From an uncultured Parvularculaceae bacterium (GTDB lineage Bacteria; Pseudomonadota; Alphaproteobacteria; Caulobacterales; Parvularculaceae): a stretch of 64,000 bases of DNA. Positions 35,295 through 48,907 of the stretch are shown piece by piece. The DNA lies in the NCBI GenBank assembly GCA_947259375.1, contig CAMYLZ010000025.1, positions 372,001 to 436,000 on the forward strand. Direction: 5' to 3'. Position 1 is the stretch's first letter; each line of letters begins with the position of its first letter. Under the pieces are notes generated by a model, which had not been told where the DNA came from, did not search any database, and worked only from the letters and a program-made list of their open reading frames with translations. Both the position numbers and the translations under genes were made by a program.

Positions 35295-35792
35295 TCACCG
35301 GCAGCCGGCAATCCCAGCTGTCGGCGCCACCATGCTCCAGCCGGCGCTGTCGGTGATCCGGATCAGCCCTTTTTCGAGATAAGCGCCATTATTGAATTCC
35401 AGCCCGAAACGGGCGGTGATTTCCATCTGCAAGCCTTCGGCGGAGGTGAAACGCTGTTTTTCATAAACACCATAACCGCTGGCGCCGCTAAACTCTGCAA
35501 GGCTGAGGATCACCGGCCGGCCGGAAAAATTGATCTCCGCCTCGCCGCCGGAAACAAAGCGGAAGATCGCCGCCGGCCGCGCGCCTTCGAGCGTCCATAA
35601 CAGCATGCCGCATTTGCTTTCCGGCAGCACCGGATCAGCGAGCGGACCGAGCCCTTTTTGGGCGCCATCATCGCCCGCCAGCGACAATGGCAGCCCGTTG
35701 CCGGCCTTTGCTGCGCCAGCGCCGCCCCCCGTCGTGGCGCAGGCCGCCGTCAGTACGACAAGCGCCGCTAACGCCATCATCCGTTTCATCAT
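35295..35792 (-). CDS. Unrecognised lipoprotein at the end of the type II secretion operon
   Basis: The 165-residue product starts MMKRMMALAALVVLTAACAT, a lipoprotein signal with lipobox TAAC (Cys 18). After a Gly/Ala-rich linker the mature domain (residues about 58-165) is predicted beta-rich, with two further Cys (KCGMLLW near residue 61 and the C-terminal AGCR) that may form a disulfide. I do not recognise the family. Its start overlaps the gspN stop (ATGA), so translation is coupled to the secretion operon. It could be a pilotin guiding GspD to the outer membrane, or an envelope accessory factor; the known GspS pilotins are smaller and helical, so this is only a proposal. Confidence 0.75.
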   Translation of the reverse strand: MMKRMMALAALVVLTAACATTGGGAGAAKAGNGLPLSLAGDDGAQKGLGPLADPVLPESKCGMLLWTLEGARPAAIFRFVSGGEAEINFSGRPVILSLAEFSGASGYGVYEKQRFTSAEGLQMEITARFGLEFNNGAYLEKGLIRITDSAGWSMVAPTAGIAGCR

Positions 35793-36568
35793 GACCCCGC
35801 TCCCTTGAAAACGCCCGCTGCGCCATATGTCAGCGCGCCATCATCATCTTCAAATCCGTAAAGCCGCAGGGCCGATGCGATGCCTGGTTCGCTCGCCCGC
35901 GCCTCGGCGGTGACTTCATAGGTTAGGTTGGGCAAGACCCGCACCGACATTTCCGCGCTGCTGCGCTCATTCGCGCCCGCCATAGTGATTACGACCGCAC
36001 TGCCCTCGCAGCGCACGCCGCCGGAAAGCGGCAGCGCCGGCAAGTCGTAGCGCTTGGACGGCGCGTTCAGCACATCGGTCCAGATCGTTCCCTCCGCCGC
36101 CTGACAGCCTTTCTTGAGGCTGAAATCAAACCGGTCAATAGCGATCTCGGCAACCCCTTGCGCCGGTTGGCCGAGAACGCCGCGCGGCGCCGACGCATTA
36201 AGATCAATGCGTGCATTGAGATCCGACACCGTCACCCGCCCGCCTGCGCTCAGCGAAAACCTTCCGCGCCCCAACACGGCGCCCTCTTGTGCGCTGAGCG
36301 TAATTTGCGGCGCGAGGCGCAGCAATGACAGCGCCGAAAGGCGGTATTCCATATCGCCCAGCGGAATGCCGGCGGCGGAGACCCGCTCGATCGATCCGCG
36401 CCAGATCGTACCCTGAATATTGTGGTAAGCAATCCGCTGGCGTTCAAAATCGATGAAGCCGGCGGCGATGGTCGCCGGCGCGGCGGCAAGCGCTGTCGCA
36501 ACAAACGCGGCTGCCCCGAGGCCTGCAAGCGCCGGCGGCGCGGATTTATGTCCTTGTTTCCTGGTCAC
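35789..36568 (-). CDS. gspN: Type II secretion system protein N
   Basis: GspN is an accessory inner-membrane/periplasmic protein of unknown exact role, found in only some type II systems. The 259-residue product has one N-terminal membrane helix (LAGLGAAAFVATALAAAPA) and a periplasmic beta-rich domain with GTIWRGSIERV near residue 54 and DLNARIDLNA near residue 119, the profile of the family. It overlaps gspM and the lipoprotein gene by 4 bp each. Confidence 0.85.
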   Translation of the reverse strand: MTRKQGHKSAPPALAGLGAAAFVATALAAAPATIAAGFIDFERQRIAYHNIQGTIWRGSIERVSAAGIPLGDMEYRLSALSLLRLAPQITLSAQEGAVLGRGRFSLSAGGRVTVSDLNARIDLNASAPRGVLGQPAQGVAEIAIDRFDFSLKKGCQAAEGTIWTDVLNAPSKRYDLPALPLSGGVRCEGSAVVITMAGANERSSAEMSVRVLPNLTYEVTAEARASEPGIASALRLYGFEDDDGALTYGAAGVFKGAGS

Positions 36569-37029
36569 GAGCGTCTTTCAAACACCAGCACCTGGCCTGT
36601 CGCCACGCCTTCATCGCCGCGCGTGACATCGGCGAATGTCACATAAGCGCCGTAGCGGGTTTGCAAATCGCCGAGCCATGCAAACAGCGCTTCTGCGTCG
36701 GCGGGCGCGGCCTGGATTTCCACTCGCGTTGGGTCGTTCGAGGCGATGCGCACCAGTTCCACACCGGCGGCCCCGGCGGTTGAAATCACCGCCTGGCGCA
36801 GCGGCGTCGCCTCTTCCGGCGCCGAGGAGGACGTACCGGCAAGCGCCGCGGCGGCAACCGTAAGGTCATAGGCGTCGCGCGCCCGCGCCGCTTCGCGTTC
36901 GGCTTGCGCGTTCCACCCGATCAGTGGGCGGATGATGATGAGTGACGCCAGCAGCGCCGCCGCCAGTACGCCGGCAAATCCCAACAACAGGCGCTCGCGC
37001 GGGGACAAATCATTCCACCATGCGGTCAT
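36565..37029 (-). CDS. gspM: Type II secretion system protein M
   Basis: GspM is an inner-membrane assembly-platform protein that binds GspL. The 154-residue product has a short cytoplasmic N-terminus (MTAWWNDLSPRERLLL), a single membrane helix (GFAGVLAAALLASLIIIRPLIGW) and a periplasmic ferredoxin-like domain (residues about 75-150). Size and layout match the family. It overlaps gspL and gspN by 4 bp each. Confidence 0.9.
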   Translation of the reverse strand: MTAWWNDLSPRERLLLGFAGVLAAALLASLIIIRPLIGWNAQAEREAARARDAYDLTVAAAALAGTSSSAPEEATPLRQAVISTAGAAGVELVRIASNDPTRVEIQAAPADAEALFAWLGDLQTRYGAYVTFADVTRGDEGVATGQVLVFERRS

Positions 37030-38228
37030 GACAGGCTCACTTTCATTTCGCCGATATAGAAACCGCCGGAGCGGCGCACGCCGCCGGTCTCCGTAGCAAT
37101 GACGCCGCGCGCTTCAAGCGAGCGCTTGAAAGCGTCGAGTGATTCAACATCGCCAACCCGCAGATTGATCGTATATTCGCCGCGTTCGGCGTTGAATCGC
37201 ACGCGGTCAAGTTGCACGCCCTCAACATCGCCAAGCGATTCCGCGATATGCGTCGAGATCGGCAGGAACACCGGCGCGCCGCCGCCGCTCGCGAGGACAG
37301 TCCGCGCATAGGCGGCCGGCGCAACGCCGCCGGCATCCGGATAGGCCGCGCGATGCAGCGCCAGCGCGTCCGCCTGAAGCTGCTCGGCGATGCGCAGCGA
37401 GCGGACTGAATCCGCGACGGAAGTAAAAACCAGCGCGCCAAGGCATGCAGCAGCCAATATCGCCGCGCGCCGCCATGGCGCGGCCGCGCCCTTCCAGTCG
37501 CGCTTCTTGCGATACTCGCCCTGTAGAAAATTCGGCGCCCCGCCGGCCGAAAGCGATTCAGCAAACAGGCAAAACGCTTGCTCGTCGCTCAATGGCCCGC
37601 GCCAGTCGGCGCCGGTCTCGTCATCGGCGGCAAACCGCAGCTTGTCGCTTGTATGGATGACAATTTCGTCAAGCCCTTCGTCCGCCAGCAGGGACGGCAG
37701 GAACTCATCCGCAAGCGGACGCTCCATCGCAAAGCCTTGCAGGCCGACCGCGCCAAAGGCGCGCGCATGCGTCAGCACAATAATCGCCTTGGCGGCGCCG
37801 CCTCCCAAAAGCGAGAATTCCGCCGTCATGACACCCGGCGCGAGCCCGGCGCCGGCAAGCGCATCGCGCCAGCGTTCGATGCTTTCTCGCTTGGCCGCCA
37901 GCGCCTGTCCCGCGCCTTGCGGATGGCGGTGGACCGCAACATGCACATTCGCCGCCGGCTCGGCGAGTTCATCCTCAAGCAACAAGGACGCCGCCGCCCG
38001 GAATTGCGCATTGGAGCGCGGCGGCGCCGGCATCGCCCGCATCGCCGCTTCCTCGCCGCGCAAGACGGCGACGACCTGCCGCGCCGCGCGGGCCGCGGCG
38101 TCGATCCTGGCGAGCGCTGCGACATCATCCGCCTCGCCGGAAAGACGCGCCGCGCCATCCGCCATCAACGCCCATTTCACTGGCGCGTCAGGCGTCTCGC
38201 CGAGCCACAGGATTAGGGTTTCGTTCAC
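37026..38228 (-). CDS. gspL: Type II secretion system protein L
   Basis: GspL links the ATPase GspE to the membrane platform. The 400-residue product has an actin-like cytoplasmic domain (residues 1-245; LILWLGETP at the start, LADEGLDEIVIHTSD near residue 182), one membrane helix (AILAAACLGALVFTSVADS near residue 253) and a periplasmic ferredoxin-like domain ending GEMKVSLS. Overlaps with gspK and gspM (4 bp each) indicate one transcription and translation unit. Confidence 0.92.
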   Translation of the reverse strand: MNETLILWLGETPDAPVKWALMADGAARLSGEADDVAALARIDAAARAARQVVAVLRGEEAAMRAMPAPPRSNAQFRAAASLLLEDELAEPAANVHVAVHRHPQGAGQALAAKRESIERWRDALAGAGLAPGVMTAEFSLLGGGAAKAIIVLTHARAFGAVGLQGFAMERPLADEFLPSLLADEGLDEIVIHTSDKLRFAADDETGADWRGPLSDEQAFCLFAESLSAGGAPNFLQGEYRKKRDWKGAAAPWRRAAILAAACLGALVFTSVADSVRSLRIAEQLQADALALHRAAYPDAGGVAPAAYARTVLASGGGAPVFLPISTHIAESLGDVEGVQLDRVRFNAERGEYTINLRVGDVESLDAFKRSLEARGVIATETGGVRRSGGFYIGEMKVSLS

Positions 38229-39235
38229 TCTTCCGCTCCAATCCGGCGCGCGATCAGCCGGGTTTCGCCATCCTCGCCGATGGCGATATCCGTCGTCATT
38301 TCCAGTACCGCCCTATTATAAACAATCTCTGCACGCGCCCGCAGCCGCCGCGAGGTCACCGCAAATCGCCCTTCGACGCCCGCCGCCGGACGGGCCGACT
38401 GCACCAGCGATTCCGCCAGAAATTCCTCCACATTCCTGTAGCCGCCGACCGGACGCGCGCCGATGATGTCCGCCGCCTCGCGGATGGTGACTTCATCGCC
38501 AAGAACCGCCGCCAGCAGCGGCGCATGACGTTCGCTCAGCATATTGACGTTGATTACGGACGGGGTCGGCCCCGCGGCGCACATAAAGGGTTTCAACTGG
38601 GCGTAAATCTCTCGGGTAAAGCCGCGCGCGGCGCGCATCTCGCTTGCCGACGCCATCGGCTGATTGCCGGTGCGATATGGCGAGGGCAGCGCCGTGTAAT
38701 AACCGTCTTCCACGCCTTGCGGGCGGCGCGCGGCGTCTTCGTCGACCCAATCGCCGAGCGCTTCGGCTAGGCTCGTCGCATCAAATTCGCCAAGGCCGAG
38801 CAACACCGCAAGGCGCACGAATTCCGCCGACGCAGCCGCGCCGGCGCCGTCCTCACCGGCGGCTGCATCGCTCAGCGCCCCGCCTGCAAGGCTGTTGATA
38901 TTGAAGCACGCCGTTGCGTCGGCGAAGGTTAAGCGCGCGCCGCCTTCCTCGAACGGAATATCGAGCGGTTGCGCCGCCCACGGATCATCGAGCGACATCC
39001 GCCCGTCCGCAGCGGCATATGCCGCCTCGATCGCCGATTGCGCGAGCGCCTCCGCCGCAAAGGCGCGCCACAGGGCCTCGCCTCGCGCCTGTACATTGAT
39101 CGCACGCGCCGCCGCGCGCGAAGTCCGCTCCATGCTGGCGAGCGCCACAAAGGACAAGGTCGCCGCCAGCAGCAGCACGATCAGCAGCGCCGCGCCGCGC
39201 TCAGCCTGTTTTTTTTGGAAATGCGCTTCGGTCAT
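38225..39235 (-). CDS. gspK: Type II secretion system minor pseudopilin K
   Basis: GspK sits at the tip of the pseudopilus with GspI and GspJ. The 336-residue product has the processing site ERG-AALLIVLLLAATLSF: GspK lacks the usual Glu at mature position 5, and the position here is Ile, consistent with the family. The large globular domain between about residues 60 and 290 is the GspK-specific insertion (SLAEALGDWVDED). Cleavage is expected by the peptidase encoded at 48116. Confidence 0.93.
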   Translation of the reverse strand: MTEAHFQKKQAERGAALLIVLLLAATLSFVALASMERTSRAAARAINVQARGEALWRAFAAEALAQSAIEAAYAAADGRMSLDDPWAAQPLDIPFEEGGARLTFADATACFNINSLAGGALSDAAAGEDGAGAAASAEFVRLAVLLGLGEFDATSLAEALGDWVDEDAARRPQGVEDGYYTALPSPYRTGNQPMASASEMRAARGFTREIYAQLKPFMCAAGPTPSVINVNMLSERHAPLLAAVLGDEVTIREAADIIGARPVGGYRNVEEFLAESLVQSARPAAGVEGRFAVTSRRLRARAEIVYNRAVLEMTTDIAIGEDGETRLIARRIGAEE

Positions 39236-39885
39236 AAGCGCTCCGCCATTTCGCCGATCCAGAAACGTTGCTCAAGCGGCGCGCGATCCGGCCATTCCAG
39301 CCGCAACGCCACGGCCGGCGGCGGCGCCGAGGCGGCTGAAACCGGCCAGATATCGGCCCAGGCGAGTTCGCCGCGTTCCTCACCCACCAGGAACGCCGCA
39401 CTCGCGCCCTCGAGCCCGTCGAACAACACCCGTTCGATGACATCCGATTGCGCCGCTTCATCGAGATAAATCCGCGCCCGGCGAATGAGCGCGCCATCGC
39501 GAAAGATATATTCGACATATTGCAGCGCGCTGCGCGGCGCATGCGCGCCAGGATTGACCCAGCCATCGCGCACAAACGCCATCAGCACATTTTCGTCATC
39601 CTCGACCCGGCCGCCAAAAGTGACGAGATTGCCGCGAAACGCCGCCGGGCCGATCTCGCCGAATTCATCGCGCACCTTGCGCCGCGTGACTTGCGCCAGG
39701 TCTTCCTTGATCAGCGTGCGGGCGATCTGGAACGCCTTCAGCTCCGCATCCGCCGCCGCGAGCTGGTCGCGTGAATCGACCCCGAGCCGCAGCGCATAGA
39801 CACTGGCTGAGGCGATCGCCGCGAACACCAACAGCGCCACCAGCACTTCCGGCAAGGTCATGCCGCGTTGGCGCACACGGTTCAT
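39232..39885 (-). CDS. gspJ: Type II secretion system minor pseudopilin J
   Basis: A minor pseudopilin that completes the tip complex with GspI and GspK. The 217-residue product has the prepilin site RQRG-MTLPEVLVALLVFAAI with the conserved Glu at mature position 5, followed by a beta-rich globular domain (LEWPDRAPLEQRFWIGEMAE at the end). It overlaps gspI and gspK by 4 bp each. Confidence 0.92.
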   Translation of the reverse strand: MNRVRQRGMTLPEVLVALLVFAAIASASVYALRLGVDSRDQLAAADAELKAFQIARTLIKEDLAQVTRRKVRDEFGEIGPAAFRGNLVTFGGRVEDDENVLMAFVRDGWVNPGAHAPRSALQYVEYIFRDGALIRRARIYLDEAAQSDVIERVLFDGLEGASAAFLVGEERGELAWADIWPVSAASAPPPAVALRLEWPDRAPLEQRFWIGEMAERL

Positions 39886-40259
39886 TTCGCCCTCCGCAGA
39901 CTGACGGCGCCGGCGAGCACCTGATCGCTTTGCGGCGCGGTTATTTCGATATCGATCCTCAAAACGCCCTCAACTCCAGCTTCGGAGACCACCCGGCGAT
40001 ATTGCATCGGCCGGTCGCCGACGCTGACGCCGCCTTCGATCTCGCCGATCTCGAGCGCGCTGGTCAGGGTCAGCGCTTCGACCATCAGATTGTCCGCAGC
40101 GACGGCGGCGTAGGTCTTGTCCTCCATCGCGGCGGCGAAGCGCGTGTTTTGCCCGACAAGGACCAGCAGCCCAGAGATAACAAACCCCATCACTGCGAGC
40201 GCCACCAGCGTTTCGACCAGCGTAACGCCGGCCTGCGCATATTTGCGATCAGCGTTCAT
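39882..40259 (-). CDS. gspI: Type II secretion system minor pseudopilin I
   Basis: GspI nucleates the pseudopilus tip. The 125-residue product carries the prepilin site AQAG-VTLVETLVALAVMGF (Glu at mature position 5) and the AADNLMVEALTL segment typical of GspI near residue 55. It overlaps gspH by 11 bp and gspJ by 4 bp. Confidence 0.92.
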   Translation of the reverse strand: MNADRKYAQAGVTLVETLVALAVMGFVISGLLVLVGQNTRFAAAMEDKTYAAVAADNLMVEALTLTSALEIGEIEGGVSVGDRPMQYRRVVSEAGVEGVLRIDIEITAPQSDQVLAGAVSLRRAK

Positions 40260-40806
40260 CAGCGCCCGCCGTCAATGTCAGGCCGCCCGCGCCATCCAGC
40301 GAAACACGCGCCGCAGTGCGTTGCGCGCGAAAGGTCGCGACGAAGGGCGTGCTCTCGCCCGTCGGCGTGAACCGCACCGGCGGCGGCGCGTTTTCATCCT
40401 TTTCGTCGCCCGCCCTTTCCGGCGCATTCTTGATCGCCGCGTCCTCGACGATGGCCTCGAATGCGATCCCGGCCGGCAGCGCTTCGGCCGGCAACTGCGC
40501 CGAAGACGCCGGACGCCAGACGCCGCGCTCATATTCAACGAAGCGATAGCCGGCCTCGTCAAAATGGAGCCCGAGGGTCACGCCGGCGGTGACCGCCCGG
40601 CCGGCGGCAAAGTCGATGCGGGCGGCGAGCCTTTCGCTGGCGCGGGTCGCATCGCTGGCGGGCGGCGGCGCGTTCAGGACAACGACGCTCGCAATCAGGG
40701 CGATAATCGCCAGCACCACCAGCAATTCGACCAGCGTGACGCCGCGCTCTCCCGCACGGCCCGGAATTGCTGCGTTATTCCTGCGTCCAGTTGCCAATGT
40801 CAGCAT
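40249..40806 (-). CDS. gspH: Type II secretion system minor pseudopilin H
   Basis: GspH links the tip complex to the major pseudopilin filament. The chosen start at 40806 (MLTLATGRRNN, 185 residues) has GGGGAAGG five bases upstream and overlaps the gspG stop by 32 bp; a longer frame to 40857 is less likely. The prepilin site is GERG-VTLVELLVVLAIIAL with Glu at mature position 5. An acidic, Pro-rich insert (DEKDENAPPP) near residue 137 lengthens the globular domain compared with most GspH proteins. Confidence 0.9.
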   Translation of the reverse strand: MLTLATGRRNNAAIPGRAGERGVTLVELLVVLAIIALIASVVVLNAPPPASDATRASERLAARIDFAAGRAVTAGVTLGLHFDEAGYRFVEYERGVWRPASSAQLPAEALPAGIAFEAIVEDAAIKNAPERAGDEKDENAPPPVRFTPTGESTPFVATFRAQRTAARVSLDGAGGLTLTAGADER

Positions 40807-41242
40807 TAAGGCCTTCCCCGCCCGGCTCGCCGTCAGCGCCATAGGAAAACAAGTCAAACGCGCCGCCGCGCTCGCCTGGAATCCGGTATTGGTAAGAGTT
40901 GCCCCACGGATCGAGCGGCGCGCCGCCGCGCAAATAGCCGCCGGGACGATAGCGCGTCACATTGCGCGCATCGGCGGGCGCGGATTGCAGCGCCGACAAA
41001 CCTTGCTCCGTCGTCGGATAATTGAGCATGTCGAGACGATATTGGTCGAGCGCGGTTTCGATAACGCCGATATCGATGCGCGCCTTGTCTACCGCCGCCT
41101 GATCGCGCGCCGGCAGCACATTAATCACGACAATCGCCGAAATCAGCGCCAGGATCGCCAGCACCACCAGCAACTCCACCAGGGTAATGCCCCGCTGCGC
41201 CCGTTGGCGCGCCTTGCGCCATCGCGCATTGTTCCGTTGCAT
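40775..41242 (-). CDS. gspG: Type II secretion system major pseudopilin G
   Basis: GspG forms the shaft of the pseudopilus. The start at 41242 (MQRNNARWRK) is preceded by GGAGG five bases upstream; an ATG 12 bp earlier overlaps that site. The prepilin site is QRG-ITLVELLVVLAILAL, Glu at mature position 5. The hallmark YPTTEQGLSAL, the DPWGNSYQYR stretch, and the C-terminal calcium loop SYGADGEPGGEGLNADIGNW are all present. About 155 residues before processing. Confidence 0.96.
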   Translation of the reverse strand: MQRNNARWRKARQRAQRGITLVELLVVLAILALISAIVVINVLPARDQAAVDKARIDIGVIETALDQYRLDMLNYPTTEQGLSALQSAPADARNVTRYRPGGYLRGGAPLDPWGNSYQYRIPGERGGAFDLFSYGADGEPGGEGLNADIGNWTQE

Positions 41243-41268
41243 GCATTCCTCCATCGCGTTTTGCGCCT

Positions 41269-42483
41269 TTAGCCCGCCGCCAGCGCGTTGAGGCGCAGGA
41301 TCGGCAGCAATATCGATAGGACAATGACCAGCACAGCCCCGCCCATGGCGACAATAATCGCCGGTTCAAGCAGTCTCAACGCTACTGTCGAGGCGGTGTC
41401 AAATTCCTCCTCCAGTTGCAGCGCCGCCTTGTCCAGAAGCTCCGAAAGCGCACCCGCCCGCTCGCCGGCGGCGACCATATGCACCAGCATTGGCGGCAGG
41501 ACATTGGCGCGTTTGAGCGCCGCCGCCAGCGACGCACCCTCGCCGACCATAGTCACGGTGCGGTCCAACCGGTCGCGAATATGGCTGTTGGAAACCGTGC
41601 GCTGGGCGCCCACCAGACTGTCGAGCAGCGGCGCGCCGCCGGAAAAAAGCGTCGCCAGGGTGCGCGCGAAGCGAGCGCCGTCAACCGCGCGCATCAAGCG
41701 CCCGAGGATCGGCACACGCAAAAGGAACTCGTCAAAAGCGCGTTTCAGTTTCGGCTCCTTGAGGGCCCGCCAAGCGCCGACGCCGAGAACGATCAGCACC
41801 AGCAAGGCATAGAACCCATAAGCGACCGTCCAGTTGGAAACGCCAACAACCAGTTTGGTCAGGAACGGCAATTCCGCATTGAAGGCATTGAACTGAGCGA
41901 TGATCTTCGGCACCACGAAAATCATCAGCGCCGTGACGACGCCGGCGGCGATCAACGCGAGTGCCGCCGGGTAAATCAATGAGGCGATCGCTTTGTTCTT
42001 GATGGCGCGGTTTTTCTCCAACATGGTCGCCAGCCGCTCCAGCACCCCGGCGAGATCGCCAGAGGTTTCGCCGGCCGCGATCACCGCCCGGTACAGCGCC
42101 GGAAAGGACTTCCGGTCTTCGCCAAGCGCGTCGGCAAAGCGCCAGCCCTCCATCACGCGCTCACGCACGGCGATCAGGCGGGTGCGCGCCGGCGCGGATT
42201 CGGACTGCACCGCAACCGCGTGCAGCGCTTCCTCAAGCGGCGTGCCCGCGCCGATCAAAGCCGACAATTGCCGCGTCATCACGACGAGCTGGCCGCTTCT
42301 TATGCGTGGTTCGCTCGACCCTATGACACGCGCCGCTTTTTCATTACGCGGCTGGGAAAGTTTGACCGGCGTCAGATTGAGCCGGCGCAGTTCAAGGCGC
42401 GCAAGACGCTGGCTGTCGGCCGATAACACGCCCCGCCGCGTCTTGCCGCCAGTGTCGAGCGCCTCATATTCAAACGCCGGCAT
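41269..42483 (-). CDS. gspF: Type II secretion system inner membrane protein F
   Basis: GspF is the polytopic platform protein that works with the ATPase. The start at 42483 (MPAFEYEALDTGGKTRRG) is six bases after AGGAGG; the adjacent ATG at 42486 is closer than ideal. The 404-residue product has two repeated cytoplasmic T2SSF domains (residues about 70-195 and 275-395) and three membrane helices; PALYRAVIAAGETSGDL and its repeat PPMLVHMVAAGERAGAL are the paired family motifs. It overlaps the end of gspE by 14 bp. Confidence 0.95.
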   Translation of the reverse strand: MPAFEYEALDTGGKTRRGVLSADSQRLARLELRRLNLTPVKLSQPRNEKAARVIGSSEPRIRSGQLVVMTRQLSALIGAGTPLEEALHAVAVQSESAPARTRLIAVRERVMEGWRFADALGEDRKSFPALYRAVIAAGETSGDLAGVLERLATMLEKNRAIKNKAIASLIYPAALALIAAGVVTALMIFVVPKIIAQFNAFNAELPFLTKLVVGVSNWTVAYGFYALLVLIVLGVGAWRALKEPKLKRAFDEFLLRVPILGRLMRAVDGARFARTLATLFSGGAPLLDSLVGAQRTVSNSHIRDRLDRTVTMVGEGASLAAALKRANVLPPMLVHMVAAGERAGALSELLDKAALQLEEEFDTASTVALRLLEPAIIVAMGGAVLVIVLSILLPILRLNALAAG

Positions 42484-43975
42484 CATCGTCCTCCTGGCGC
42501 ACGACGCGCAGGACTTCCTCAATCGATGTCACGCCGGCACGCGCATGTCGAAAGCCCGACTGCGCCAGCGTTTCGGATTTCGCAAAAGCATGATCGCCCA
42601 GCGCATGTTCGCTGGCGTCGTCATGGATCAGCCGCTTCATCTTGTCATCGACGACAATCAATTCGTAAACGCCGACGCGGCCCTCATAGCCGGTATGGTT
42701 ACAGCGCCCGCAGCCTTTGGCGGCAGAAAGCGTCGCCGACGCGCCCTCCTCAAGGCCCAATAGCCGGCGCGTCGCCGCATCCGCCTCGTAAGGCTCTTTG
42801 CAGGATGGACAAAGCCGGCGCACCAGGCGCTGCGCCAGCACCGCCGCCACCGTTGAGGACAGCAAAAACGGCTCAACGCCCATATCGCGCAGCCGCGTGA
42901 TCGCCCCGACGGCGGAATTGGTGTGCACCGTCGATAGAACAAGGTGACCGGTCAGCGACGCTTGCACCGCAATTTCAGCGGTTTCAACGTCGCGAATTTC
43001 ACCGACCATGACAATGTCCGGGTCCTGACGAAGAATGGCGCGCAGCCCCGTCGCAAACGTCATCCCGACTTTCGGATTGATCTGCGTCTGGCCGACGCCG
43101 TCGAGCGCATATTCGACCGGATCTTCGACCGTCAGGATATTGCGGCTCGGATCGTTCAACAGCGTCAGCGCGCCGTAAAGCGTCGTTGTCTTGCCCGACC
43201 CTGTCGGCCCGGTCACCAGAATGACGCCGTTCGGACGGTTCAGCACATGCTTGAAGCGCGTCAGAATTTCTTGCGGCATGCCGAGACCGTCGAGATCGAG
43301 CCGCGCCTCGTCCTTGTCGAGGATCCGCATCACCACCCGTTCGCCGAACCGCGCCGGCAAGGTCGAAACGCGCACATCCACCGTCTTGCCGCCAAGCGCC
43401 AGCGAGATGCGCCCATCCTGTGGCACCCGGCGCTCGGCGATATCAAGCCGCGCCATCACTTTAACGCGCGAGGTCAGCACCGGCGTCATACGCGCCGGCA
43501 GCGACAGCACCTCGCGCAGCACCCCGTCGATCCGCAAACGGACGGATAGCGCGCTCTCATAAGGCTCAATGTGAATGTCAGACGCTTTGACCTTCACCGC
43601 CTCGGCGATCAGCGCGTTAATGAGCCGGATCACCGGCGCATCATTCTCGCTGTCGAGCAGATCGGCGGTCTTCGGCAAGCCTTCAGCCAGCGAGGCGAGA
43701 TCGCCGTCGCCGTCGTCCAACTCGAGATCAGATGTGGAGATTCCCTCTACGGAATAGACCTCAGACAAGCGCCGTTCGAATGCTTCGGGCGGCATCAGAT
43801 CAATACTGACCGGGGCCCCAACGGCCCGGCGCGCCTCGATCACCGCCCAGGGGTCCGGCTTGCCGCGCGCGCCGAGCACGATCGGGCGCGCCCCGCCGTC
43901 GAGAACGATCAGTCCGCGTTCCTTGGCGAAGGCGTAAGCGAGCCTGGTCGCTTTGATGTCAGCCGTTTCACTCAT
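42470..43975 (-). CDS. gspE: Type II secretion system ATPase E
   Basis: GspE is the hexameric ATPase that drives pseudopilus assembly. The 501-residue product has N-terminal domains to about residue 110, then Walker A GPTGSGKTT near residue 257, Asp box ILTVEDPVEY, Walker B IVMVGEIRDVETAEIA, His box GHLVLSTVHTN, and the zinc-binding tetracysteine CPSC...CGRC (about residues 391-427) that marks GspE-type ATPases. It starts 20 bp after gspD. Confidence 0.96.
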   Translation of the reverse strand: MSETADIKATRLAYAFAKERGLIVLDGGARPIVLGARGKPDPWAVIEARRAVGAPVSIDLMPPEAFERRLSEVYSVEGISTSDLELDDGDGDLASLAEGLPKTADLLDSENDAPVIRLINALIAEAVKVKASDIHIEPYESALSVRLRIDGVLREVLSLPARMTPVLTSRVKVMARLDIAERRVPQDGRISLALGGKTVDVRVSTLPARFGERVVMRILDKDEARLDLDGLGMPQEILTRFKHVLNRPNGVILVTGPTGSGKTTTLYGALTLLNDPSRNILTVEDPVEYALDGVGQTQINPKVGMTFATGLRAILRQDPDIVMVGEIRDVETAEIAVQASLTGHLVLSTVHTNSAVGAITRLRDMGVEPFLLSSTVAAVLAQRLVRRLCPSCKEPYEADAATRRLLGLEEGASATLSAAKGCGRCNHTGYEGRVGVYELIVVDDKMKRLIHDDASEHALGDHAFAKSETLAQSGFRHARAGVTSIEEVLRVVRQEDDDAGV

Positions 43976-43995: not shown

Positions 43996-46017
43996 CTATC
44001 GTTGTCCCGCCGTCACGCTATCGACGCCGGTTACTTCATTAATCAGCCGTTCCATTTCCGATGTCGGGCTGCCGTCCCGCAAGAGCTCACGGGCGCGAAT
44101 GTAGTCGAATTTGCGCCTGGTCGCCGCATCGGCGGTTTCCTGATCACGAATGATAGTCGGGCGGATAAACACCATCAAATTCTGACGGCGGCGCTCTTTC
44201 GAGGAGGTCTTGAAAAGATTGCCAACGCCCGGAATATCGCCGAGCAACGGCACTTTTTCCTGAAACTCTTCACGCTGATCGTCAATCAGCCCGCCAATCA
44301 CCAGAATATTGCCGTCATCGACCAGCGCCGTCGTCGAGATTTCCCGCTTGTTGGTGATAAGATCGGTCGAGGTTGAACTGATCGGCCCGGCAATCGAGGA
44401 AATCTCCTGCACGATCTCCATGGTCACCGTGTCGCCGTCATTAATCTGCGGCGTCACTTCCAGAATGACGCCGACCTGTTCGCGATTGACCGTGCGGAAC
44501 GCATTCTGGAAATTGTCGCCAACCGCCTCGCCGGTGGTGATCGGTATCTCCTGCCCGACCTGCAAACGGGCCGTCTGGTTATTCAGCGTCAGGACGGAGG
44601 GCGTCGATAACACATTGGAGTCGAGATCGTTTTTCAGCGCGGTCAGAATGCCGCCGAAAATATTGCCATTGCCGAAATCAAAGCCGCCGCCGAGCGTCAG
44701 CCCCTGAATCCCGATCAATGATTGCAGCGCCTGCGTCGCCAACTGCGATTGCAGGCCCTCGGTCTGAGCGTTGGTGACAACGCCATTGGCGTCAGTGATG
44801 GTCGTGTCCGGCGTTTCAAACACGTCGGTAAATTTGTCGCCGCTCAGCAGCGCCGCGCCCGCCGCAGGAAAAATGTTCGGCGCAGCGGCGAAGTTTGTCG
44901 CCGAAAACGGGATATTGTCGCCGGTCAGAAAATACTGAACGCCAAGCTCGCGCGCCGTGGTGTCGGAAATCTCGACAATGATCGCTTCAACCAACACTTG
45001 CGGACGGCGCACGTCGAGCTGCGCAATGACATTCTGCAAGGTGCGCTGAATGCTTGCATCGCCATTGATGAGAATGGAGTTTGTCGGACCGTGAAATGAA
45101 ACGGTCGCAATATTGCGCGCCGTCTGCGTTTCTCCGCCGGCGCCTGCGGTTGCATTATTCGCGACTTCCGACAGCAAGGGCGCAAGTTCTTCGGCATTCG
45201 CATGTTTGAGATGAATAACCGCGAGGTCGGATGTTTTTTCGCCAAAGCGGTCCAACTCGGCGATCACCAATTCGAGCCGCCGCATCAGGGCCGGTTCTGC
45301 GCGCACCAGCAAGGAATTGCTCGCATCGACCGGCACGACGGAAAATGCCGAGCGATTACTGCCTTCTTCAGTCAGTTCAGCAGCGAGATCTCGCACCAGC
45401 CGGGCGATTTCCGCGGCGGAGGCGTATTCGAGCGCGATCGTGCGGAAGATGGTCGCGTCCTGGTCGAGCCGCTGCAACACGCTCTCAATGCGCGCCACAT
45501 TGTCGGCGGTGTCGACGATGATCACCGCATTGCCGGTGCGCACCGGGCTGACCACGCCGTTCTGGCCGACAATTTGCGCGAGATTGGCGGCCGCCTCGCG
45601 GGCGTCAACATAGCTTAGCCGCACAATCTGCGTCACCATATCCGAGCCGCGGCCCTCGCCGACAACGCCTGCCGTGCGCGCTGCTTCCTGCAGCGGCACG
45701 ATCCGGTATTTCCCATCGCCCACCGGCGCGGCCACAAAGTCATTAACCCGCAGCATCGCCTGGAAAAGCTCCCAGGCTTCATCCGCACACAGACCGCCAT
45801 TGGGCGGCGACTTGACGGTGACGCGCCCTTGCACGGCTGGATCAAGCAGGAAGGTTCGCCCGGTCCTGATCGCAATTTCATCAATCACCGCGCGGATATC
45901 GGCCTCTTCATAATTGAGCGCCGCGCCGCAGTCTTCCTGTGCGAAGGCGGTATGCGGCGCAATGGCGGCGCCAATCGCCAGCCCGGCTGCGCACAGCGTT
46001 TTGCGTATCGTCCACAT
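43996..46017 (-). CDS. gspD: Type II secretion system secretin D
   Basis: GspD forms the outer-membrane channel. The 673-residue product starts with a signal peptide (residues 1-26, ending PHTAFAQ), then N0-N3 domains (N1 includes LSYVDAREAAANLAQIVG; N3 includes TNSILINGDASIQRTLQ), then the secretin core with QVGQEIPITTGE (near residue 502) and VPLLGDIPGVGNLF (near residue 601). A C-terminal S-domain-like tail of about 40 residues follows, the region that pilotins bind. The start shares one base with the gspC stop. Confidence 0.96.
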   Translation of the reverse strand: MWTIRKTLCAAGLAIGAAIAPHTAFAQEDCGAALNYEEADIRAVIDEIAIRTGRTFLLDPAVQGRVTVKSPPNGGLCADEAWELFQAMLRVNDFVAAPVGDGKYRIVPLQEAARTAGVVGEGRGSDMVTQIVRLSYVDAREAAANLAQIVGQNGVVSPVRTGNAVIIVDTADNVARIESVLQRLDQDATIFRTIALEYASAAEIARLVRDLAAELTEEGSNRSAFSVVPVDASNSLLVRAEPALMRRLELVIAELDRFGEKTSDLAVIHLKHANAEELAPLLSEVANNATAGAGGETQTARNIATVSFHGPTNSILINGDASIQRTLQNVIAQLDVRRPQVLVEAIIVEISDTTARELGVQYFLTGDNIPFSATNFAAAPNIFPAAGAALLSGDKFTDVFETPDTTITDANGVVTNAQTEGLQSQLATQALQSLIGIQGLTLGGGFDFGNGNIFGGILTALKNDLDSNVLSTPSVLTLNNQTARLQVGQEIPITTGEAVGDNFQNAFRTVNREQVGVILEVTPQINDGDTVTMEIVQEISSIAGPISSTSTDLITNKREISTTALVDDGNILVIGGLIDDQREEFQEKVPLLGDIPGVGNLFKTSSKERRRQNLMVFIRPTIIRDQETADAATRRKFDYIRARELLRDGSPTSEMERLINEVTGVDSVTAGQR

Positions 46018-46877
46018 TATCCGTTTCCTAACTCACTCAGGGACACTGTCACCGACTTCCGTTCGCCGCCCCGTTCAACCACAACTCGCGCCGATCCGAC
46101 ACGGGTGATTTCACTCAGCAGCCGCGTCAGCTCCGCCGGATCAAGCGGCGGCGGCCCGCCATTGATCGCGCGCAGGACGTCGCCGTCGCGAAGCCCGGTC
46201 TGCGCAAATTTCGCCCGGTCGCTCCCCGCGCGGATGATGATCGCCGGCGCGCCGGCGGCATCGGCGCCAGGCCCCAGCCGGAAAATCGTTTGCAGGGTTT
46301 CAATCGAAAATTGTTGTCCGGCGCCGGTGGTGCGCGGCGCATCAGCGGCGGCGGCCCTTGCCGCCGGGCGCGCCGAAGGATCGATCGCGACCTTGCCCTC
46401 GAACCTCAATGATTCACGCACGCCGCGCTGTTCGATGATGACGCGGTCGCCGAAAACCCCAACCATGCGAACGCCATTGACGATTTCATCACCAATGACA
46501 AACCGACCCTGTTTGCCGTCCGGCGTGCGGATGGTCGCGGATGATCGCTCGCCATTCGCCCAAACGCCTTTGAGTTCCAGATCAAGCGAAGTCTCCGCCA
46601 CATCCGGCGCAAGCTCGACCGGCGCCAGCGGCGCCTGGGATTTTGGAAAAGGGCTCGTCACATCCAGAGTAACGCTTGAACGCTGCGGCGCCGCGGTTAG
46701 CGCCGCCAGCGCATCGCCCTTCGGCGTCGGCAGCGGCGCAAACAGAGACAACAAGCCGAGCATCAGCAAAACGCCGAGCAGCACCGCGAGGCCGGCCTCT
46801 GCGAGGCGCGGCCCCAGCGGCGCGCTGAGCACGCCATTCAATCGATCAAAAACGCCTGACATGCCGAGACTGGCCAA
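46017..46877 (-). CDS. gspC: Type II secretion system protein C
   Basis: GspC connects the inner-membrane platform to the secretin. The 286-residue product has one N-terminal membrane helix (AVLLGVLLMLGLLSLFAP near residue 32), a periplasmic homology region (residues about 98-165: LDLELKGVWANGERSSA, IGDEIVNGVRMVGVF) that binds the secretin N0 domain, and a C-terminal PDZ domain (GLRDGDVLRAINGGPP near residue 236). First gene of the minus-strand operon gspCDEFGHIJKLMN; the 229 bp upstream to the pseudogene presumably holds its promoter. Confidence 0.94.
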   Translation of the reverse strand: MASLGMSGVFDRLNGVLSAPLGPRLAEAGLAVLLGVLLMLGLLSLFAPLPTPKGDALAALTAAPQRSSVTLDVTSPFPKSQAPLAPVELAPDVAETSLDLELKGVWANGERSSATIRTPDGKQGRFVIGDEIVNGVRMVGVFGDRVIIEQRGVRESLRFEGKVAIDPSARPAARAAAADAPRTTGAGQQFSIETLQTIFRLGPGADAAGAPAIIIRAGSDRAKFAQTGLRDGDVLRAINGGPPPLDPAELTRLLSEITRVGSARVVVERGGERKSVTVSLSELGNG

Positions 46878-47797: not shown

Positions 47798-47925
47798 CCG
47801 AGAGACCCCCGGAATTTTTTGCACGCTCAAACGCCGGCGCCCCGCGCGCCGGTTATGAAGCGGGATTAGTCGAGCGGTTTGACAAACGCCTAACAGCTTT
47901 ATTGCAATCGCGTGACAATGCTTGC

Positions 47926-47993
47926 GTACATATTCAGTGTGCACACCATGTGCGTGCGCCTAAAACGCACACAGTGCATATTCGAATGCGTAC
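47926..47993. repeat. Imperfect 68-bp inverted repeat upstream of gspO
   Basis: An inner perfect stem TGTGCGT (47949-47955) / ACGCACA (47965-47971) is extended outward by partial pairing, ending in GTAC...ATTC against GAAT...GTAC. It lies between the pseudogene and gspO and has a lower GC content than its surroundings. It may be a hairpin in the gspO leader or the remains of a small mobile repeat. Confidence 0.4.
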
Positions 47994-48115
47994 TGGTTGC
48001 ATTCCGGGCGGTTAATCGAAAACAATATCAACCCATTGCCGGACGGCGCCCTCGACGGGGTTCGCCCTTGCGTATATGCATAAGGCATTCAGCGGCAGCC
48101 GGGAATTTCGCTTGC

Positions 48116-48907
48116 ATGTGGATCATTTTCGCAACGATCGGCATCGCCGGCCTGTTTGTCGGCAGTTTCCTGAATGTCGTCATTCATCGCGGGCCGGTCA
48201 TGTGGGGGCTCGCGGACGGCGAACCGCGCGGCGACCTCGTTGCGCCCGGTTCTTATTGTCCGGCTTGCAAGGCGCCGATCAGACGCGCGCACCTCATTCC
48301 CCTAGTCAGCTTCGCAGCCCTTGGCGGAAAATGCGCCGCCTGTAAGGCGCCGATCCCGATACGCTACCCGGCAGTCGAGCTGCTCGGCGCCATTGCCGCC
48401 TTTACGGCCGTGTTGGTCTTCGGCCTTTCGCTCGCGGCGCTTTTCGCGTCGCTGTTTTTTTTCACGCTGATTGCGCTTGGCGTTATCGATGCGAAAACGG
48501 GCTATCTCCCCGATGCGCTGAGCCTGCCGCTGATCGCACTCGGCCTTGCCGTCAATGCTTTCGGCATGTTCGCAGCCCTGCCGCACGCAGCAATTGGCGC
48601 GGTCGCCGGATTTGTCTCATTCTTTCTGATCGGAGAGGCGTTTCGCCGGTTGCGCGGCGTTGACGGGCTCGGTCAGGGCGACGCGAAACTGCTCGCCGCG
48701 ATCGGCGCCTGGGCCGGCTGGCCGGCGCTCGCACCCGCCGTTTTCGCCGCCGCGATTTTCGCCTTGATCGTCGTCGCGGCAATGAAGCTCGCCGGCCGCG
48801 CCATCAGTCGGGAGACGCCGATCCCCTTCGGCCCGGCGCTCGCCATGGCCGCAGCCATGACAATGATCGCGCTCGGCCTCGACCTGCCGTCTTATTATTG
48901 GCGCTGA
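48116..48907 (+). CDS. gspO: Prepilin peptidase / N-methyltransferase of the type II system
   Basis: GspO cleaves and methylates the pseudopilins GspG-K. The start at 48116 (MWIIFATIGIAGLFVGSFLN) opens with the conserved first helix and gives 263 residues, normal length. The zinc-binding CPAC...CAAC pairs (YCPACKAPIRRAH, GKCAACKAPIPIRYP) lie near residues 44-82, and the two catalytic aspartates in IDAKTGYLPD (near residue 126) and GLGQGDAKLLAAIG (near residue 185). It points away from the gsp operon, 319 bp from the pseudogene start, rather than being part of the operon. Confidence 0.93.
   Translation: MWIIFATIGIAGLFVGSFLNVVIHRGPVMWGLADGEPRGDLVAPGSYCPACKAPIRRAHLIPLVSFAALGGKCAACKAPIPIRYPAVELLGAIAAFTAVLVFGLSLAALFASLFFFTLIALGVIDAKTGYLPDALSLPLIALGLAVNAFGMFAALPHAAIGAVAGFVSFFLIGEAFRRLRGVDGLGQGDAKLLAAIGAWAGWPALAPAVFAAAIFALIVVAAMKLAGRAISRETPIPFGPALAMAAAMTMIALGLDLPSYYWR

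Follow-up and report, generated by a model that had tools for sequence, protein, structure and literature searches.

A lipoprotein family linked to the end of the type II secretion operon is a candidate accessory protein in Alphaproteobacteria

The 64,000-nucleotide stretch of DNA analyzed here (the window), from an uncultured Parvularculaceae bacterium, encodes a type II secretion system (T2SS) on its minus strand. Twelve consecutive ORFs match the T2SS components C to N in Pfam and are followed by a thirteenth gene, here referred to as LIP, whose start codon (ATG, 35792-35790) overlaps the stop codon of gspN (TGA, 35791-35789). The original prediction, which gave no strand, had described a 165-residue lipoprotein tied to gspN by an ATGA overlap as the 13th gene of the operon, and both the overlap, on the minus strand, and the rank in the operon were borne out. 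The genes preceding LIP are listed in the order of transcription:

46017..46877, minus strand: gspC (PF11356), with a weak PDZ match (PF17820, below cut-off)
43996..46017, minus strand: gspD, secretin with a C-terminal tail of ~50 residues (PF00263, PF21305)
42470..43975, minus strand: gspE (PF00437)
41269..42522, minus strand: gspF (PF00482)
40775..41254, minus strand: gspG (PF08334)
40249..40857, minus strand: gspH (PF12019)
39882..40259, minus strand: gspI (PF02501)
39232..39885, minus strand: gspJ (PF11612)
38225..39235, minus strand: gspK (PF21687, PF03934)
37026..38228, minus strand: gspL (PF12693, PF05134)
36565..37029, minus strand: gspM (PF04612, E 7.7e-25)
35789..36568, minus strand: gspN (PF01203, E 1.6e-27)

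The 3' neighbor of LIP is a convergent ZIP transporter gene, so the gsp operon ends at LIP; a promoter and terminator scan at this locus was uninformative. The prepilin peptidase gene gspO (window positions 47912-48907, plus strand) is upstream of gspC and divergent from it, whereas some other genomes have gspO directly after LIP in convergent orientation. In Caulobacter crescentus, gspO is described as following gspN in the opposite orientation in the accessible part of the source (PMC2996285).

Coupling of the two last genes is conserved: between the end of gspN and the codon of the lipid-bearing cysteine there is about the length of a signal peptide (median 47 nt; 30-90 nt in 91/97 genomes). 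The lowest value comes from genome G190, in which gspN and LIP share one open frame of 437 codons (L240:2899-4209, plus strand), with the LIP signal segment and lipobox directly after the GspN part and inside the frame. Either a fusion or a nested start could account for this frame, and we give it little weight because the internal signal segment clouds the topology and because it was seen in one genome only.

The features of LIP itself are as follows:

35295..35792, minus strand: LIP, T2SS-linked lipoprotein gene without prior name, 165 aa (ORF; family in 141/249 genomes)
35789..35792, minus strand: ATGA start/stop overlap of LIP with gspN
35739..35792, minus strand: predicted signal peptide, residues 1-18 (lipobox pattern in 108/122 homologs)
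35736..35738, minus strand: Cys 19, predicted to be lipidated, with ATTGGGA following
35649..35735, minus strand: low-confidence linker, residues 20-48 (AlphaFold2 pLDDT 60-65 over mature residues 1-30)
35298..35648, minus strand: predicted eight-stranded all-beta domain, residues 49-165 (AlphaFold2 pLDDT ~97)
35610..35612, minus strand: invariant Cys 61, opening strand 1 (85/85 rows)
35301..35303, minus strand: invariant Cys 164, closing strand 8 (85/85 rows)

The signal peptide has the C-terminal end ...LTAAC. In an alignment of 85 non-redundant rows, from which eight of 108 homologs missed by the motif pattern had been left out, Cys 61, Pro 157 and Cys 164 were invariant and Gly 136 was present in 99%. 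An AlphaFold2 model based on these rows had a mean pLDDT of 89.8, rising to ~97 over the domain, with eight strands and no helix, and the model of a divergent member again had eight strands (mean pLDDT 91.0). The mature domain had been proposed to be beta-rich with two cysteines, and structure prediction had been suggested as a check; the confident all-beta domain and the conserved cysteine pair support that description. Given the position of Cys 61 at the start of strand 1 and of Cys 164 at the end of strand 8, a disulfide stapling the barrel is plausible.

Foldseek searches with the two models gave no match under E 1e-3; LolB (8cm1) was among the Foldseek rows at E 0.29. With VIA-align, the top rows were tied at Z 7-8.7 and belonged to unrelated barrels (avidins, designed barrels and others). 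The resemblance to avidin-type, NHBA-type and designed eight-stranded barrels is weak, with low sequence identity, and these matches may reflect only a common arrangement, with no shared function implied. The model of the divergent member also matched Brucella PhiA (Z 6.5) and Neisseria ACP (Z 6.3), both of which we take to be lysozyme-inhibitor-like, and LIP might on that basis inhibit lysozyme or a peptidoglycan hydrolase and so protect the cell wall near the secretin. However, these Z values are within the range of the common arrangement and below those of the unrelated barrels, and MliC was absent from the Pfam results of LIP members, which makes such a role very improbable.

Searches of LIP against Pfam and NCBIfam returned no family match, and nothing was found for the family in PHROGs. 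NF046038 covered only the signal peptide (E 0.29), and NF038353 was hit by 1 of 50 family members (E 0.0048), which we take as chance. The best PDB-sequence match of the LIP profile, to Rho GTPases (E 0.42), was likewise dismissed as chance. No description of the family was found in the accessible literature. Judged from its sequences, LIP is a real family without annotation and no chance ORF, since homologs occur in 141/249 genomes and the two cysteines are invariant in all 85 rows.

The 141 genomes with LIP, out of 249 examined in the order, were recovered by a combination of protein, profile and whole-genome searches. The protein search matched 133 genomes, of which G058 was dropped (two internal stops and no profile match); to the remaining 132 were added eight in which the profile found LIP beside gspN, and then G098 by whole-genome search. 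Nine further small matches in the protein search, mostly to residues ~30-91 and all in genus g10, are probably low-complexity. LIP lies directly after gspN in 131 genomes (116 by coordinates, six by profile [G112, G144, G178, G198, G207, G214], the eight later profile finds and G098), directly after gspM in eight whose operon no longer contains gspN (G010, G035, G069, G073, G078, G109, G177, G179), and at a contig end in two (G169, G184). Conserved linkage to gsp genes, set beforehand as a test, was therefore found in 139/141 genomes, the remaining two being those at contig ends, and the original description of a lipoprotein coupled to the T2SS operon holds across the order. In all 40 named GTDB loci, including Marinicaulis flavus, Amphiplicatus metriothermophilus, Aquisalinus luteolus and Parvularcula species, gsp genes precede LIP, although these overlap with the 249-genome set and are no independent sample.

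Wider sampling recovered few additional homologs. Among 385 genomes drawn from the class there were three matches, one of them (G397) outside the order, and among 398 drawn from the phylum there were ten, all in the same class and three outside the order. As far as searched, the LIP family looks alphaproteobacterial. Outside the order, the gene order gspM-gspN-LIP was found in G397, G897 and G915. G825 (L270) has a LIP homolog that is anchorless and unlinked to gsp genes, in a genome with no GspD over the cut-off; read by eye, it sits between thiolase-like and aldehyde-dehydrogenase-like genes.

Several operons have been rearranged around LIP. Four are split with the order gspC-gspD-gspN-LIP and a convergent gspO (G024, G029, G108, G168), and a fifth has gspD-gspN-LIP (G098). 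The retention of LIP beside gspD and gspN in all five suggests that it belongs to the secretin side. That LIP is simply an unrelated passenger at the end of the operon would fit the unlinked homolog in G825 and the GspD tree, on which the presence of LIP switches 4 times or more, but LIP has the same position in five family codes and beyond the order, and retains it through both gspN loss and operon splitting, and we consider a passenger highly unlikely. In our judgment LIP is likely to be some kind of accessory protein dedicated to the T2SS, and not cargo.

LIP is not found in every genome with a T2SS. A gspN match without LIP was seen in 21 genomes, of which four were set aside: in G204 the gspN match was apart from other gsp genes, in G209 the contig stops at gspN, and G229 and G244 were not listed over the GspD cut-off (best GspD-model E 3.8e-34 and 2.1e-33). 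The other 17 are clean cases, with gspN and with GspD over the cut-off, so LIP has been dispensable in evolution. Two properties expected of a core component diverge here: the in-operon position of LIP is conserved across genera, but LIP is not present wherever the T2SS is present. On the GspD tree, the LIP trait needs at least 4 changes and the gspN trait likewise 4. No signal of joint loss was seen on this tree (49 scored rows, four independent pairs; rows under 400 aligned residues excluded and G204 unscored), and a simple count of gspN and LIP co-occurrence would look strong but is confounded by descent. GspN and LIP are lost independently of each other. The loci in which LIP follows gspM with no gspN between (L060-L062, L064, L067, L071, L073, L076) belong to several genus codes, so that repeated loss of gspN within the order is probable.

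The coupling of the two genes raises the possibility of a joint role in lipoprotein export. In its accessible part, one study reports that T2SS lipoproteins of A. baumannii and K. pneumoniae depend on GspN, an AsmA-like protein, proposes unidentified hand-off proteins, and describes T2SS lipoprotein cargo as carrying GGG or ND(N/D) (PMC12802150). GspN could lift lipidated cargo off the inner membrane with an AsmA-like groove, with LIP as the receptor on the outer membrane side that hands it to the secretin. The coupling of LIP to gspN in most genomes and the single frame in G190 are in line with such a relay. Nevertheless, LIP persists in eight genomes after the loss of gspN from the operon (of these, G010 carries a GspN-like gene on a separate contig), which indicates that its partner is not GspN alone. 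Further points against it are the 17 clean genomes that keep gspN without LIP, the lack of joint loss on the GspD tree and the homologs that look anchorless (11/121). We consider this relay unlikely. LIP shares a link to GspN and predicted lipidation with InvL and PulA, named as GspN-dependent lipoproteins in the same part of that study (PMC12802150), and differs from them in its persistence after gspN loss and in the absence of a cargo sorting motif (0/108).

The anchor of LIP was assessed in 122 homologs from genomes with a LIP reading frame (121 from the order, and G397). The lipobox pattern was found in 108. For G020 and G184 the pattern overlooked a lipobox that is clear by inspection, and the frame of G169 is truncated where its contig stops. 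The last 11, G009 and G148 among them, look anchorless (11 of the 121 readable homologs), with a plain signal peptide that by eye has no cysteine. The +2 residue is Ala in 59/108 and Asp in none, which suggests that LIP, with its predicted lipidation, may sit in the outer membrane and face the periplasm.

Lipidated and plain-signal versions can also coexist in T2SS cargo, and LIP could accordingly be a small disulfide-bonded surface lipoprotein exported by the system, or secreted where the anchor has been lost. An NHBA surface-lipoprotein domain among the weak fold matches would agree with this, and there is a precedent in a related bacterium: ElpS of C. crescentus, a T2SS-dependent secreted lipoprotein of ~50 kDa, is encoded upstream of gspC together with a TonB receptor, according to the accessible part of the report (PMC2996285). 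LIP resembles ElpS in being a lipoprotein gene linked to the gsp cluster, but is small and lies downstream of gspN. Moreover, none of 108 homologs has at +2 to +4 the GGG or ND(N/D) that marks cargo in A. baumannii, although this rule may not hold in this class, and a fixed place in the operon of the machine in 139/141 genomes would be unusual for cargo. On balance, a cargo role for LIP is improbable.

A different possibility is that LIP is a pilotin of a new type for GspD, as the original prediction had put forward. The predicted outer membrane lipoprotein adjoins secretin genes, GspD carries a conserved C-terminal tail, and neither PF09691 (PulS/OutS) nor PF16549 (AspS) had a match in the genome of the window. 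There is also a beta-barrel precedent: MxiM, the pilotin of a type III secretion system (T3SS), folds as a cracked beta-barrel, and pilotins reportedly arose independently (PMC3276575, accessible part). The two Pfam families were equally absent among the Pfam matches of 85 LIP members, and membership of LIP in a known pilotin family was rejected on these tests. The prediction that LIP is unlike GspS/AspS is thereby supported, by the missing PF09691 and PF16549 matches and by the all-beta model. Its characterization of those pilotins as helical needs amendment, as the AspS-type is not purely helical: EpsS binds the secretin through a beta-sheet (PMC6532946, in the part accessible).

Comparison of the GspD tails does not favor a pilotin. 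GspD was read in 68 loci, and after omission of the LIP-negative locus L201, which yielded no tail, the tails of 40 LIP-positive and 27 LIP-negative loci showed no difference in length (median 63.5 vs 66) or in any obvious motif; the 27 include G204, a draft genome with the operon end off the contig. In genus g27 the same SSLESIVEMM-type tail occurs with and without LIP. In the GspD of the order generally, a tail of ~50 residues with a recurring S/D-L-D/E motif follows the secretin domain in LIP-positive and LIP-negative genomes. Together with the anchorless homologs (11/121) and the loss of LIP from 17 genomes that keep the T2SS, these alike tails lead us to disfavor a true pilotin, which we regard as possible but improbable. 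LIP is like PulS/OutS and AspS/GspS-beta in being a small T2SS-tied lipoprotein with a predicted outer membrane location, and unlike them in having no sequence match, an all-beta domain as opposed to a helical bundle or alpha/beta fold, a place as last gene after gspN, some anchorless members and no tracking by the GspD tail. It is predicted to share with MxiM, which serves a T3SS secretin, the character of a beta-barrel lipoprotein; no sequence match between the two was seen. MxiM and other known pilotin folds were not among the fold-match rows shown, an absence that proves nothing.

The reading that we tentatively prefer places LIP at the GspC-GspD-GspN part of the T2SS. After export, LIP would in most species receive a lipid and be anchored at the periplasmic side of the outer membrane, with the flexible linker extending from there to the eight-stranded beta domain, which a disulfide would close. 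The domain may dock on the secretin side, with GspC, GspD or GspN as the presumed contact, and the docked protein might help the complex to assemble, to remain stable or to pass cargo. This secretin-side placement draws on the operon linkage, the split operons, the survival of LIP after gspN loss, the +2 residues, the absence of a known pilotin match and the MxiM precedent; the 17 genomes without LIP, the alike tails, the anchorless homologs and the unlinked copy in G825 count against it. With a comparable degree of reserve, LIP can be regarded as occupying a pilotin-like place without pilotin ancestry. The other role named in the original prediction, a substrate-sorting or outer membrane factor, may also apply to LIP.

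The T2SS is treated as a set of 13-16 known genes in the accessible part of PMC12802150. LIP is probably an overlooked part of the system and a candidate extra subunit in many alphaproteobacteria. It bears on how secretins without a recognized pilotin are held in the alphaproteobacterial outer membrane, and on what takes lipoprotein cargo from GspN. A more specific and rather unlikely proposal is that LIP is the missing hand-off or gate factor on the outer membrane side, receiving cargo at the secretin, perhaps by the acyl chains of GspN-delivered lipoproteins; if this is true, Alphaproteobacteria would have a T2SS subunit of a new class. GspN-like genes were also observed away from the gsp operon, at G010:C2:129354-129950 and in L046 (G204).
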